64,000 nucleotides of DNA from Rhodomicrobium lacus. GTDB lineage: Bacteria; Pseudomonadota; Alphaproteobacteria; Rhizobiales; Rhodomicrobiaceae. The position numbers were made by a program, and so were the translations under genes. Shown here one piece after another: positions 2,905-53,300 of this stretch. The stretch covers positions 372,001 through 436,000 of the forward strand of contig NZ_RZNF01000007.1 in the NCBI RefSeq assembly GCF_003992725.1, written 5' to 3'. Below the pieces are notes generated by a model that was not told the origin of the DNA, made no database searches, and saw only the letters and a program-made list of their open reading frames with translations. Within the stretch, counting starts at the first letter, position 1, and every line of letters starts with the position of its first letter.

Positions 2905-3855
2905 CTACTGATTTGACGGGTTTGCTTCGGGCGAGCGGGTATTCAATTCGCTCGAAAACGCGCCGGACGACAGGGGAGCCGCATCGGCCGGTTGCGTCTT
3001 TTCGGGCTCCGCCTTTTCAGACTGAACCTCGTCGGCGCTAATCGTATCGGATGGCGGCTCGTCCGGTGAAAGCGCGTTCGTTGCCGCCTCCTGCGGCGTG
3101 AGTTCGTACAGCAGGAAAGACTCGATATAGATCGACTTTTCCAGCGCCAGCCTTGCCTTGAAGCCCGCTTCAGCGATTTCGCGATCGAAGAAATCGAGAT
3201 CGGAATCGGACGAGATCATGAGATACATCCGGCCGTCCGGTTTCAGCCGCGCACGCGCCTGACGGAAAAGGCCGCGCAGGTTCAGATTATCCGGCCCCGA
3301 ATGCCAACCGGCATCGGCGAGATCGCGCGTCTTGCCTGCATGCTTCGGCGGGCTTGAGAAAATGACGTCGAAGATCGGGCGCGCCGGAATCGCATCCATA
3401 AGATTGCAACACAGACCTTTCACGTTCGGGCCGTAACCGTTCGCCTCCGCGTTCTGGACGGCGGCGTCGGCGGCGTTCGGGTTGATGTCGAGCGCGAGCA
3501 CGAAATCCGCGCCCGCGCGTGCCGCCGCCAGCGCGAGAATGCCCGAGCCGGTGCCGATATCGGCAACCACCTTGCCCCTGAGATCGAGGCCGTCGATGAA
3601 GTGAGCGAAGGTCTCGCTCGAAATGAAATAGCGCGGATGGAAGACGGTCGGCGGCACCTCCAGCATGAAGCCGGCTGCTTTCGCGCGCTGCGTATCATCG
3701 TGGTTCAGCACGAAATGATAGGACAGATAGTGCAGCGTGCTGCGCAGGGCCTTGCGAAACGCCGACTGCGGACGCCCGCGCCTGTCGAGCGCCGAGGGCG
3801 CCGCGCCACCAGCGGCGACCGGATTATGCGAAGCCTGTCCCAATACCTGATCCAT
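2905..3855 (-). CDS. class I SAM-dependent methyltransferase
   Basis: A 316-residue protein with the Rossmann-fold methyltransferase signature: motif I VADIGTGSGILALAAARAG (about residues 97-115), acidic motif LALDINPNA about 20 residues later, and SSPPKHAG near residues 167-174 in the position of the NPPY catalytic motif of HemK/PrmA/RlmG-type enzymes. That motif suggests methylation of an amide or amino nitrogen on protein or nucleic acid, but SSPP is a departure and the substrate cannot be told. After about residue 255 the chain becomes a low-complexity, Ser/Glu/Pro-rich tail. I chose the ATG at 3855 (AGGGGTG upstream); an in-frame ATG at 3915 would overlap the deaminase gene by 37 bases. 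Confidence 0.8.
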   Translation of the reverse strand: MDQVLGQASHNPVAAGGAAPSALDRRGRPQSAFRKALRSTLHYLSYHFVLNHDDTQRAKAAGFMLEVPPTVFHPRYFISSETFAHFIDGLDLRGKVVADIGTGSGILALAAARAGADFVLALDINPNAADAAVQNAEANGYGPNVKGLCCNLMDAIPARPIFDVIFSSPPKHAGKTRDLADAGWHSGPDNLNLRGLFRQARARLKPDGRMYLMISSDSDLDFFDREIAEAGFKARLALEKSIYIESFLLYELTPQEAATNALSPDEPPSDTISADEVQSEKAEPEKTQPADAAPLSSGAFSSELNTRSPEANPSNQ

Positions 3856-40692: not shown

Positions 40693-41026
40693 CGGATGGT
40701 GTGCAGCGTAAGCCCTCGACTTGGATGCCCTATCAGGTTTTGGCGAACCCCGGCCTCGGGCCGACAAAAAAAGAGGCCATCCAAAATGATTGAACGGCCC
40801 CAAGTCTAGGGAGGAAACGCCCAAGGAGGGCAGCGACACGCGTAATGAACGCATATCGCACCGCAGTAATATCGCATTGCAGCGCACAAAATACAAGAGA
40901 CAGTTGTGATGTGCACCGCGTTGCTCGTTTCCGCAACAAATCGTCCGCCAAATAAGCCTGTGCGAAACATCTGCCAAGTTGCATACGATTTCACGCAGTA
41001 TGTCGACAAAACGGGGAGTGTCCGAC
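40693..41026. other. 334-base gap upstream of hisN
   Basis: No protein-coding frame. The left half carries the minus-strand terminator and hairpins listed as a candidate small RNA. The right half (40900-41026) must hold the hisN promoter, but I see no clear -35/-10 pair. Confidence 0.5.
40766..40850 (-). ncRNA. candidate small RNA with orphan intrinsic terminator
   Basis: Reading leftwards: hairpin GCCC-TCCTT-GGGC (40831-40819), then GTTTCCTCCCTAGAC, then a stem GGGGCC / GGCCTC (40801-40796 with 40778-40773) followed by seven Us (40772-40766). The terminator has no gene upstream of it on its own strand and both neighbouring genes run the other way. Loops rich in CCUCC could pair with ribosome binding sites. 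The 5' end is a guess; no firm promoter was found. Confidence 0.45.
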
Positions 41027-48428: not shown

Positions 48429-48489
48429 CATGGCCGCGCGTTCGGCCGTCCGGTAAGTCTGCGGTATTTTCGTGGGGTGGCGTGCGCGC

Positions 48490-51201
48490 ATGGAGTCGAC
48501 GCAAAGGTTTTTGCCGAAAGCGCTTGCGGCCGAGTTGCGGCGTCTGCCTTGGCGCGTGCTGGGCTTCTCTCTCGTCGCAATCGCGGCCGCGATCTGGCTC
48601 GCGCTCATAAGCTGGTCTTACGGCGACCCGAGCCCGAGCTACGCCACTACATCGCAGCCGCATAACTGGCTCGGCCATCGCGGCGCGAGCGTGGCGGACG
48701 CGATGATGCAGGCTTTCGGACTGGCATCCCCCTTTCTCGTGTTCCCGGTATCGGTGTTCGGCTTTCGCATTTCGGGCGGCAATATCCCCTCGCGCCCGCG
48801 CCTGCGCCTCGCCTATTGGGCGGGGGCGGCCTTGCTCGTACCCGCGTTCTTCGCCATGTTTCCGACGCCGAAGAGCTGGGTGCTCGATACCGGCCTTGGC
48901 GGCATCGCGGGCGACTTCGCCGCCGCGCTTGCGGCTAAGGCGACGTCGGCGATAGCGCCCTGGCTCCTGTGGCCGCTGCTCGGTCTGATCCTTCTCCCCG
49001 CTGGCGGCTGGTGCCTCCTTCGCGCGTGCGGGCTGAATTCCAAGGTCCTCCCCGCAGCGTTCCAGATGGGCGGCGAAGCTCCTGCGCGGGGCAAGGGCAA
49101 GGCCAAAGGCAAAGCGAACGCGGAAGAACCGCTTTTCGACAAGGCGGCGAACTGGGCGAAGCGTGTTTCCCGGCAGGGCAGCGGTGCGCTCGCGGCATTC
49201 GCGCACCCCGGCGACTACTGGCTCGCGCGTGTTCGCGAGGAGACGCCACCCGCTCCGGCCTCATCGCCCGCGCCCGCGAAAGCGCCAAGGGGGGCCGCGC
49301 CGAAGGCCGTGGAGCCTTCGCCCTTTTCGGACTGGGGCAGCCGCCCCACGCCTTCGCTTGGCGGTTCGGACACCCGCCGTGTCGAAGCCGAATCGGACGG
49401 CCTATTCGAGGATGTGCGCATCGAGCCGTTCTTCGGCGTCCGCCGTGAGCCGAATGCCTCCGCAGACGCACCGGCGGCCAGCAAAAAGCCCGACGATGAC
49501 GGCGAGCCTGTTTCGCCGATCCGCCGCCTGACGGGCAAGGCCATGGAAACGGCGATGAACGGCGCACACAAGATCATCGAGACGAGCGCGGCAGCCGCCG
49601 CTGCCGTCAAGCGCCAGAAGCCGCTCATTTACGTGAAGCCCGCCAACGACGAGCCGGCTCTTCGCACTGATGACGACGTGCTCGAACACTTCACCTCCGC
49701 ACTGCCGCCGCTCTCGTTGCTGGCGCCTCCGCCCGTGGCCTCGGAGCGGCCCGGAGCGCACGATCCCGTGCTGATGCAACGCGCATCCGCGCTGATGGGC
49801 GTGCTGGGAGATTTCGGGGTGAAGGGGAAGATGTCGGGCATCTATCCGGGCCCGGTCATCACGCTGTTCGAGCTTGAGCCAGCGCGCGGCACGAAGTCCT
49901 CGCGGGTGGTGGGCCTCGCGGACGATATCGCGCGGTCCATGAGTGCCGTCTCGGCGCGCGTCGCCGTCGTGCCCGGCCGCGACGCCATCGGCATCGAGCT
50001 GCCCAACCCGAAGCGCGAAATGGTCTCTCTTCGCGGCATCCTCGAATCGAACGCGTTTCAGGATGGGCAGGCCGCGCTGCCGCTCGCGCTCGGCAAGTCC
50101 ATCGGCGGCGAGCCGATCGTGGTGGATCTCGCCCGCATGCCGCATCTTCTCATCGCGGGCACGACGGGGTCCGGCAAGTCGGTCGGCATCAACACGATGA
50201 TCCTGTCGCTGCTCTATCGTCTGCCGCCGAGCCAGTGCAACTTCATCATGATCGACCCGAAGATGCTGGAGTTGTCCGTGTACGACGGCATCCCGCATCT
50301 GCTCGCGCCCGTCGTTACCGACCCGAAAAAGGCGGTGGCCGCGTTGAAGTGGACCGTCAAGGAGATGAACACGCGCTACGAGAAGATGTCGAAGCTCGGC
50401 GTGCGCAACATTACGAGCTACAATTCCAAGGTCGCGGCGGCGCAGCTTCGCGGGCAGCCGTTGAAGCGCGTCATTCAGACAGGGTTCGATCCCGATACCG
50501 ACGAGCCGATCGAGGAAGAAGAAATCTTCGATCCGGTGCCGATGACCTACATCGTGGTGGTCATCGACGAGATGGCCGACCTGATGATGGTGGCGGGCAA
50601 GGACATCGAATTCGCCGTGCAGCGCCTGTCGCAGATGGCGCGCGCGGCGGGTATCCATCTCATCATGGCGACGCAGCGCCCGAGCGTCGACGTGGTGACG
50701 GGCACGATCAAGGCGAACTTCCCGAGCCGCATCAGCTTTCAGGTGACGTCGAAGATCGACAGCCGCACCATCATCGGCGAGCAGGGAGCGGAACAGCTTC
50801 TCGGCGCGGGCGACATGCTCTACATGGCGGCGGGCGGCCGCATCATCCGCGCGCATGGGCCGTTCGTGTCTGACGAGGAAGTCGAGCACGTCGCGGCGCA
50901 TCTCAAGGCGCAGGGCTTCCCGAACTACCGCGACGACATCCTCGAAGACCCGGACGCCGAAGACGAGGCCCCGCGCAAGGGTGGCGGCGGCGGAGACAGC
51001 GGCGATCTTTATGCATCCGCCGTCGACATCGTGCTGAAGGACCGGAAGCCAACGACAAGCTATCTCCAGCGCCGCCTCGGCATCGGCTACAATCGCGCGG
51101 CATCGCTCATCGAGCGGATGGAGCAGGAAGGCATCGTCGGCGCGCCGGGCCGCACCGGGCGACGGGAAATCCTGATCGAGGAGCGCCACAGGGCGAGTTA
51201 G
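48490..51201 (+). CDS. ftsK: DNA translocase FtsK
   Basis: Septal double-stranded DNA pump that clears the chromosome termini at division. The 903-residue protein has about four membrane helices in the first 190 residues, a charged/Pro-rich linker to about 430, and the motor domain with Walker [14 protein letters not shown] (near 556), Walker B-like [12 protein letters not shown] and the RecA-like core [20 protein letters not shown]. The C-terminal gamma winged helix ([20 protein letters not shown]) reads KOPS sites. A GTG at 48472 is an alternative start. Confidence 0.95.
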
Positions 51202-51376: not shown

Positions 51377-52252
51377 ATGAGCAAGCGCGTCTTTTCGAGC
51401 TTAAGGGGATCAGGGGCGCGGGTCGCGCTTGGCGCGCTGCTGGCGACCGGCACCGTGACCGCGGTTTTCGCGCAGGGCGGTCAGACGGAAGTCCACAAAA
51501 CGTATCCCGCTCCTTCCGCCACGCCCGCTCCGGTTGCTCCAGCGCCAAAGCAGCCGCTCCCGGTTCCGACCGAAGCCCCGGCTCCCGCTGCCAAGCCGAC
51601 AAGCCCCATCGGCGGAACGGCATCAACAGCGGCGCCAGGCTGGCAGACTGACCTCGACCTCGCGCAGCAGCCGCAGGCGATCCCCGAAACGGCTGCGGCG
51701 CCCATCCAGGAAAGCGACCTCGAAGTCGTCGCCAAGATCAACGATTATTTCAACAAGCTGACATTTCTGCAGGGCGTGTTCGTGCAGACAGATCCCGACA
51801 CCAAGCAGAAGCGTGGCAAGTTCTACCTCGCGCGCGGCGGCAAGGTGCGGTTCGACTATGGCGCGCCGAGCAAGCTCAAGATCATCGCCGATGGCAAATA
51901 TCTGGCGATCGAGGATCACGACCTCAACACCTCGGACCGCTATCCTCTGGAGATAACGCCCTTCCGCCTCCTGCTCTCGGAGCACGTCGATCTCATCAAC
52001 GACGCCAATATTCTCGGTGTCGAACAGGGCCCGGACACAATCGTTCTCACCGTCGAGGACAAGAAAGGCGATGGCTCGGGCCGCATCCGTCTCATGTTCT
52101 CGAAGCCGGACATGACGCTGAAGGAATGGATCATCACCGATGCGCAGGGCTTGAACACCAAGATCGAGGTCGCCAATCTCGAGGAAAATAAAGAGCCCGC
52201 GCCCGATATTTTCCAGTTTTCCCAGACGATTGGCTTCAAGTCCTCGAATTGA
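51377..52252 (+). CDS. lolA: outer-membrane lipoprotein carrier LolA
   Basis: A 291-residue periplasmic carrier for lipoproteins. Signal peptide to AVFAQG (near residue 33), a 60-residue Pro/Ala-rich linker, and the LolA fold: INDYFNKLTFLQGVFVQTDP, KFYLARGGKVRFDYGAPSKL and FDLSDR-like DHDLNTSDRYPLEITPFRLLL. The linker makes it longer than E. coli LolA (about 200). It is the third gene of the aminotransferase-ftsK-lolA row and ends just before a small RNA locus. Confidence 0.88.
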   Translation: MSKRVFSSLRGSGARVALGALLATGTVTAVFAQGGQTEVHKTYPAPSATPAPVAPAPKQPLPVPTEAPAPAAKPTSPIGGTASTAAPGWQTDLDLAQQPQAIPETAAAPIQESDLEVVAKINDYFNKLTFLQGVFVQTDPDTKQKRGKFYLARGGKVRFDYGAPSKLKIIADGKYLAIEDHDLNTSDRYPLEITPFRLLLSEHVDLINDANILGVEQGPDTIVLTVEDKKGDGSGRIRLMFSKPDMTLKEWIITDAQGLNTKIEVANLEENKEPAPDIFQFSQTIGFKSSN

Positions 52253-52309
52253 CAAGCTAGCGATGCGACAGATTCGTCACTGTCAAGGTGCGAATTGCCG
52301 ATTTTTCAT

Positions 52310-52337
52310 TTGCAATCGGTGGGGGGCGTGCTATCTT
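52310..52337 (+). promoter_or_regulatory. sigma-70 type promoter of the lolA-xth intergenic RNA
   Basis: TTGCAA (52310-52315) and TATCTT (52332-52337) with a 16-base spacer rich in G. Transcription would begin near 52344, exactly where the first hairpin starts. Confidence 0.6.
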
Positions 52338-52344
52338 ACCTTGC

Positions 52345-52488
52345 ATAGAGAGATTGATGCCAGTCACCATCGGTAGTGCCCCCCCGTCTAGCCGAAGGCA
52401 TTAATCTCTCAGCGTCGGCTTCCCTCCCGACGCATGCGTGAAAACGCAAAAGCGCCCAACCTTCGCCGGAGTTGGGCGCTTTTTTTTG
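52345..52488 (+). ncRNA. candidate trans-acting small RNA with C-rich loops
   Basis: About 144 nt in four stem-loops. Stem 1: 52348-52361 with 52397-52410, 14 positions, one mismatch, extended inwards by TCGG-TAG / CTAgCCGA to an 11-base loop with seven Cs (52379-52385). Stem 2: GCGTCGG / CCGACGC (52412-52418, 52427-52433) with loop CTTCCCTC. Stem 3: TGCGT-GAAA-ACGCA with a GNRA loop. Stem 4: terminator with eight Us. C-rich exposed loops are the hallmark of alphaproteobacterial RNAs that bind Shine-Dalgarno sequences (NfeR1/alpha-r14, CcsR-like), but I cannot assign a family. Confidence 0.7.
52451..52487 (+). terminator. strong intrinsic terminator, 7 bases before the xth start
   Basis: AGCGCCCAAC / GTTGGGCGCT (52451-52460 and 52471-52480), loop of 10, then a run of Ts to 52487. 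It ends the small RNA and abuts the xth ATG at 52494. Confidence 0.9.
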
Positions 52489-52493
52489 TGCCC

Positions 52494-53300
52494 ATGACAC
52501 TCCGCATCAGCACCTGGAATATCAATTCCGTCCGCCTCCGCTTCGATCTCGTCGCCCGCTTCGTGCGCGAGACGGAGCCCGATATCCTCTGCCTTCAGGA
52601 AATCAAATGCCGCGACGAGCTTTTCCCGGCCGACGGCTTCCGCGAGCTTGGCTTCGAGCACATCGCGATCTGCGGGCAGGCGGGCTATCACGGCGTGGCG
52701 ACGCTGTCGAAGCTGCCGCTCGAACCGCTGCCGCGTCAGAGTTTCTGCGGCACGGAAGAAGCGCGCCATCTCGGCGCCAAGGTCGCGCTGCCGGGCGGCG
52801 GCTCGCTCGCGGTGCATAACATATACGTGCCCGCTGGAGGCGACATCCCGGACCCGGAGCTGAACCCGAAATTCAGGCAGAAGCTCGCCTATCTGGCAGC
52901 GCTGGCGAAGTGGGAGCGCGGCTGGGCGGACGATGCGAATGCCGTGCTCGTCGGCGACTTCAACGTCGCGCCGCTCGAAACCGACGTCTGGTCGCACAAG
53001 CAGCTTCTGAAGGTGGTCAGCCACACGCCCGTCGAGGTGGAGGCGCTGGAGAAGGTCCGCGAGGATGGCCGTTGGGTCGATCTCGTCCGCCGCGTCATCC
53101 CGCCCGAGCAGAAGATCTACAGCTGGTGGAGCTATCGCGCGCGGGACTGGGCGGCAGCGGATCGCGGGCGGCGGCTCGATCACATCTGGGGCAGTGCCGC
53201 GATGGCCGAGCGGACGCGCGGCGTCAGCGTGCTGAAGGAGGCGCGCGGCTGGCCGGGCCCGTCCGACCACGTGCCGGTCACGCTTGAGTTTGAAGGTTAG
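52494..53300 (+). CDS. xthA: exodeoxyribonuclease III
   Basis: A 268-residue AP endonuclease/3'-5' exonuclease for base-excision repair. Active-site blocks are LQEIKCRDELFP (catalytic Glu), VLVGDFNVAP and the C-terminal RLDHIW...GPSDHVPVTLEF with the catalytic His. The start ATG 52494 has no proper ribosome site: the preceding bases are the U-run of a terminator. GTG 52488 is a possible alternative start. Expression may depend on read-through of that terminator. Confidence 0.94.
   Translation: MTLRISTWNINSVRLRFDLVARFVRETEPDILCLQEIKCRDELFPADGFRELGFEHIAICGQAGYHGVATLSKLPLEPLPRQSFCGTEEARHLGAKVALPGGGSLAVHNIYVPAGGDIPDPELNPKFRQKLAYLAALAKWERGWADDANAVLVGDFNVAPLETDVWSHKQLLKVVSHTPVEVEALEKVREDGRWVDLVRRVIPPEQKIYSWWSYRARDWAAADRGRRLDHIWGSAAMAERTRGVSVLKEARGWPGPSDHVPVTLEFEG

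Follow-up and report, generated by a model that had tools for sequence, protein, structure and literature searches.

What occupies the interval between lolA and xth in Rhodomicrobium lacus? The interval lies in a 64,000-nt stretch of DNA (the window), where ftsK (48472–51201, recognized by its FtsK domains), lolA (51377–52252; PF03548, 114 bits) and an exonuclease III family gene (52494–53300; PF03372, 89 bits), which from family knowledge we take to be xth, all lie on the plus strand. A preliminary description, drawn from the sequence alone, had proposed a probably new, free-standing sRNA gene between lolA and xth, with C-rich loops acting on ribosome binding sites. The question is whether the interval holds such a gene or instead a tail of lolA, a leader of xth or chance hairpins in GC-rich DNA and, if it holds a gene, of what kind.

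Promoter, fold and terminator

From the fold, covariation and our models, we place a lolA-downstream (RusT-type) sRNA of ∼143 nt on the plus strand at 52345–52487, with both ends predicted. Upstream of it are a −35 element, TTTGCAA (read as TTTGCA or TTGCAA; 52309–52315), and a −10 element, TATCTT (52332–52337), separated by a spacer of 16–17; relatives carry TTGA at the same distance, and the −10 element is also seen when they are aligned. Transcription is predicted to start at about A52345, three bases 5′ of stem 1, which begins at G52348. Stem 1 pairs a 5′ arm (52348–52361) with a 3′ arm (52397–52410) over 14 bp and is capped by an apical hairpin, TCGGTAGTGCCCCCC(C)GTCTAGCCGA (52370–52395), that is near-invariant in alignment A3 and presents the seven-C run of loop 1 (52379–52385). 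Stem-loop 2 (52412–52433), supported by pairing, covariation and loop conservation, exposes the loop CUUCCCUC at 52419–52426 (also read as CTTCCCTC). It is followed by stem-loop 3, a small GC hairpin with a GAAA loop (52435–52448) that is paired in 88% of alignment cells, and by stem-loop 4, an intrinsic terminator backed by pairing and covariation (52449–52487). The terminator hairpin (52449–52482) runs into the eight Ts at 52480–52487; its loop in the window (CTTCGCCGGA) is not C-rich, whereas that of many relatives is. The −35/−10 pair, the four stem-loops and the eight-T terminator of the preliminary description are thus all present in the sequence where it had placed them.

The minimum free energy of the fold is −67.2 kcal/mol (z = −8.6 against dinucleotide shuffles), and none of 200 shuffles was equally stable. 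The minus strand likewise folds well, as expected from palindromic stems; the long T run after the last hairpin (eight Ts in the window and T-rich tails in most relatives) and the conserved upstream TTGA/TAT promoter are found on the plus strand only. A generic scanner called neither promoter nor terminator, because the hexamers match the consensus poorly and the terminator has a 10-nt loop. The claim of a promoter therefore rests on comparison with relatives. Among 100 unique relatives, 85 have TTGA 52–62 nt 5′ of a conserved CGG, whereas shuffles gave 5.7 (maximum 10); as the relatives are not independent, the count measures conservation rather than probability. A 15-codon open reading frame over loop 1 (ATG at 52357, or nearby GTG-type starts) was rejected as coding, because the C run varies in length and so shifts the frame: 84 of 102 unique relatives have six Cs, 17 have seven and one has nine.

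Covariation was scored for 38 base pairs in an ordinary MAFFT alignment of 22 relatives, made without structure fitting. Here, 95.3% of cells pair, compared with only 35–42% for slid partners, and 22 of the 38 pairs show two-sided compensatory change (97 cells vs. 32 expected by shuffling). Most of the change falls in stem 1, with 11 of its 12 modelled pairs two-sided; hairpin 2 and the terminator are paired in 100% of cells, with two-sided change in 4 of 7 and 6 of 10 pairs, respectively. Compensatory change thus gives strong backing to three of the structures (stem 1, hairpin 2 and the terminator) and weak backing to hairpin 3. The 22-relative set says little about the apical hairpin round the C run, because that hairpin hardly varies there; it covaries in a wider set of 48 more divergent sequences aligned to fit the structure, where 35 of 37 pairs are two-sided. 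The sequence of stem 1 drifts with its pairing maintained, whereas both C-rich loops are conserved. The alignment of lolA–xth regions that the preliminary description had suggested as a check accordingly gave fixed loops and compensated stems, the opposite of the random drift that would have spoken against its proposal. The structured RNA is genuine, and its stems are held by compensatory change in more than 100 related bacteria. Apart from the weak consensus match of the promoter, nothing favors chance hairpins in GC-rich DNA, and the z score of −8.6, covariation against both controls and conservation at the locus all oppose them; covariation refutes this explanation, which we give practically no weight. 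In one divergent group of loci (L019, L031, L045, L049, L092 and L114), hairpins 1 and 2 are kept, and a simple search 3′ of the RNA found no T-run terminator.

Distribution and gene order

At the DNA level, a search through 61 related genomes recovered the RNA from close relatives and from many others of the order; for the same RNA core, the nearest named records are Rhodomicrobium udaipurense and other Rhodomicrobium. The exact pattern of hairpin 1 occurs in 103 stretches among genome contigs, mostly labelled Hyphomicrobiales or one of its genera, the remainder carrying broad metagenome-assembled genome labels apart from one Hyphomonadaceae. Across 397 genomes of the order, 151 were positive with model R1 and 169 with model R2 (window copy, 121.6 and 120.5 bits, respectively), nearly all with a single copy. 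The genome of the window itself has one strong copy, its sole other match being the same place on the opposite strand (E = 0.66). Weaker relatives of the RNA extend across Alphaproteobacteria: R2 matches 48 of 385 genomes in a class-wide sample, 45 of them outside the order. In a phylum-wide sample, just two genomes outside the class match R2, at E values of 0.002–0.003, a noise level that makes class matches weaker than ∼1e-3 doubtful. Matches at two further loci (L203 and L204) look spurious, having no syntenic gene. Just 3′ of one RNA copy, at 3402–3485 on the plus strand of L170, lies a match to the Rfam DUF3800-VII RNA (41 bits; cut-off 36).

The order ftsK–lolA–RNA, on one strand, is kept in nearly all of ∼120 loci, with xth beyond the RNA where it is present, and at least one of the three genes is retained at 15 of 20 divergent loci in the order and at 15 of 20 in the class. 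Such linkage is what a stable 3′-UTR fragment or terminator of lolA, with no separate gene, would lead one to expect, the RNA being nearly always directly 3′ of lolA on the same strand. Against it, the RNA has its own conserved promoter at a fixed distance, and compensatory change extends well past the terminator. Moreover, a Rhodomicrobium species (L005/L111; L111 6660–6860) has no lolA between ftsK and the RNA, and both promoter and RNA are intact; in two members of another family (L180/L184), the RNA is flanked by leuB-like and leuC-like genes in place of lolA and xth. In a third genome, its neighbors are an ammonium transporter and a gene of the pyruvate carboxylase type. We regard a lolA tail as very unlikely.

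A cis-acting leader or attenuator of xth would fit the tight spacing in the window, where xth starts 7 nt past the T run (52487–52494), leaving scant room for another leader. With such a gap, either xth here has no leader, or its transcription passes through the terminator, or it starts elsewhere. The RNA is retained, however, in many relatives where xth lies hundreds of bases away or was not detected downstream; in Hyphomicrobium loci, where it was not detected, other genes follow. No alternative antiterminator pairing was seen, short of a systematic search. A role as xth leader is extremely unlikely in our estimate. Because the RNA survives without lolA, without xth and between leuB-like and leuC-like genes, we read it as an independent gene, and comparison thus bears out the proposal of a free-standing sRNA gene that has a promoter and a terminator of its own.

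Relation to RusT and other C-rich-loop sRNAs

The window RNA has no match among the 4227 families of Rfam 15, at gathering or at permissive thresholds, as the preliminary description had anticipated in recognizing no exact family. Gathering thresholds gave no family for the RNA at 32 relatives' loci either, and a literature text search for the loop sequence found no match. The closest described sRNA is RusT (CCNA_R0199) of Caulobacter crescentus, which is 118 nt long, lies in the lolA–xth interval and has four stem-loops (PMC11005374). RusT contacts Hfq in stem-loop 3 and regulates in an Hfq-dependent manner; it recognizes targets by a conserved cytosine that stem-loop 2 presents in its loop (seed, nucleotides 45–57) and acts on outer-membrane transporter and other mRNAs (PMC11005374). 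NtrX represses it, iron starvation or zinc induces it, and NtrX binding, CtrA half-sites and DnaA sites are reported at its promoter (PMC11005374). Its authors, who described it in 2024, reported homologs in Caulobacteraceae only (PMC11005374).

The window RNA shares with RusT the lolA–xth interval, the strand of lolA, four stem-loops of which the third is small and the last an intrinsic terminator, and a conserved C-containing loop in stem-loop 2. Its stem-loop 3 corresponds to the Hfq contact of RusT by position only. In contrast to RusT, it is ∼143 nt long, carries the near-invariant poly-C hairpin 1 and has different upstream elements. Six class-level relatives, 117–124 nt as folded, have four stem-loops and a TCCCCT-type second loop at about nucleotides 44–54; four of them adjoin lolA or xth and a fifth ftsK. 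Class relatives with this RusT-like geometry match R2 at E values of 8e-8 to 4e-5, and the poly-C of hairpin 1 is absent from these shorter forms. These relatives of 117–124 nt bridge the description of RusT and the longer Hyphomicrobiales form. From locus, architecture and intermediates, with RusT compared by its description, we infer that the two are probably orthologous. Since RusT shares both the interval and the four-stem-loop plan (PMC11005374), the new sRNA of the preliminary description becomes a RusT-type sRNA: it is newly recognized far outside Caulobacteraceae and has a precedent within them. Pending sequence comparison, it is best filed as a Hyphomicrobiales variant with an extra near-invariant poly-C hairpin.

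The likeness to alphaproteobacterial sRNAs with C-rich loops that had been noted also stands, and several of these were weighed as identities. The alphaR8/MmgR/SisA–D family (RF00519; PMC12559287) shares a short C/U-rich anti-Shine-Dalgarno-like segment (UUUCCUCCCU) and an intrinsic terminator; it differs in locus, in having one weak hairpin and in its single-stranded seed. The RF00519 model matches the window only at 40760–40838 on the minus strand (70.8 bits), a separate alphaR8/MmgR (suhB) sRNA with the UUUCCUCCCU segment, and does not match the lolA–xth RNA; the window thus holds two sRNAs with C/U-rich loops. GsrN of Caulobacter likewise has an exposed 5′ C-rich loop, which pairs with G-rich leaders, but it has its own locus and a general-stress sigma factor promoter (PMC5869019). 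It was set aside, the sigma-EcfG promoter GGAAC-N16-18-GTT occurring in none of 100 upstream regions. PmaR of Agrobacterium, which binds targets through an accessible C-rich loop on a long stem, was also set aside; it is a single spoon-like hairpin reported only from Agrobacterium and a close Rhizobium (PMC6234868). EcpR1 (SmelC291) of Rhizobiales resembles the RNA in being an order-wide sRNA with an invariant loop but differs in its divK–pleD/rpmG locus and its loop UCCGCCGCAUCU (PMC4414408). The window RNA has neither that location nor that loop, and this identity too was dropped. Rfam CC2171 (RF01867), Caulobacter-only among control genomes, matched 84 of the 385 class genomes at E ≤ 0.001, 13 of them over the cut-off, and was of no use as a marker for Caulobacter genomes.

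Loops, targets and upstream regulation

Complementarity of the loops to ribosome sites was scored in 800 kb plus the window (∼22% of the genome), with custom gene calls for 417 genes. Loop 2 reached −12 kcal/mol or better in 26 ribosome-site windows, compared with 4 and 1 inside genes; shuffled C/U loops match ribosome sites just as often. By this calculation, loop 2 can suit anti-Shine-Dalgarno pairing, generically rather than specifically. Loop 1 showed no bias at −12 kcal/mol (112 ribosome-site windows vs. 112 and 108), and the complement of its 11-mer showed no excess genome-wide (83 vs. 99 for a reversed control pattern). The anti-Shine-Dalgarno design attributed to both C-rich loops therefore fits loop 2 only in that generic sense and lacks support for the seven-C loop, since ribosome sites are not enriched in its complement.

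Taken together, we think it probable, with good though not full confidence, that this is an independent, single-copy, trans-acting sRNA gene, the Hyphomicrobiales version of the lolA–xth sRNA known as RusT in Caulobacter, bound by Hfq and pairing through loop 2. By analogy with RusT, Hfq, whose gene is present in the genome, would bind the sRNA. The exposed CUUCCCUC loop of stem-loop 2 would then pair with a set of mRNAs at their purine-rich ribosome binding sites and lower their translation or stability. Control of many mRNAs through exposed C-rich loops is probable because the RNA occupies the position of RusT. With less support, and again by analogy, the targets may include outer-membrane transport genes and transcription may respond to metal or envelope stress.

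The near-invariant poly-C hairpin 1 may be an added docking module. Tentatively, and as a rather doubtful proposal, the hairpin CGGUAGUG-C6-7-GUCUNRCCG could be a distinct module that an ancient RusT-type sRNA acquired in Hyphomicrobiales; by docking a single dedicated partner, either a protein that binds poly-C or one G-rich RNA, it would give the sRNA a second function besides anti-Shine-Dalgarno pairing. A more far-reaching alternative holds that the RNA acts mainly by sequestering or docking a protein, or one specific RNA, at hairpin 1 rather than by pairing with many ribosome sites. The conservation of loop 1 exceeds what a multi-target anti-Shine-Dalgarno seed needs, and the complement of loop 1 is enriched neither at ribosome sites nor genome-wide. 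Yet strong conservation also suits a multi-target seed, the loop of EcpR1 being similarly fixed (PMC4414408), the poly-C of hairpin 1 is missing from the shorter class-level relatives, and the target test covered just ∼22% of the genome. We consider docking as the main activity unlikely and retain the RusT-type regulator pairing through loop 2 as the preferred reading.

Among 100 unique regions upstream of the RNA, 42 contain the inverted repeat T[CA]AC-N6-GTGA, compared with 0.2 in shuffles. The repeat lies nearly always 88–91 nt 5′ of CGG (for example, in L022, L035 and L048) and hardly at other spacings; it is absent from the window and from Rhodomicrobium. CenR was rejected as its regulator, the CenR motif being a direct repeat (TGA-N8-TGA) and not an inverted one. 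CAA-N3-5-TTG, which we take to be the NtrX motif, was not enriched upstream of the RNA (21 vs. 18.1 in shuffles). DnaA-box-like sites (ATCCACA/TGTGGAT) occur in 14 of 100 upstream regions against 1.7, which is suggestive only as regards regulation.

The kind of sRNA is not itself new; its breadth, its absence from Rfam and the added poly-C hairpin are. The findings suggest that the lolA–xth locus has carried a structured sRNA with C-rich loops through much of the class. If so, this would rank among the more broadly conserved alphaproteobacterial sRNA genes that Rfam does not yet include, and the study of a RusT-type regulator would extend to many methylotrophic and environmental genera. A family can be defined directly from the models and alignments, and two fixed features, the poly-C hairpin and the inverted repeat upstream, offer concrete, testable targets.
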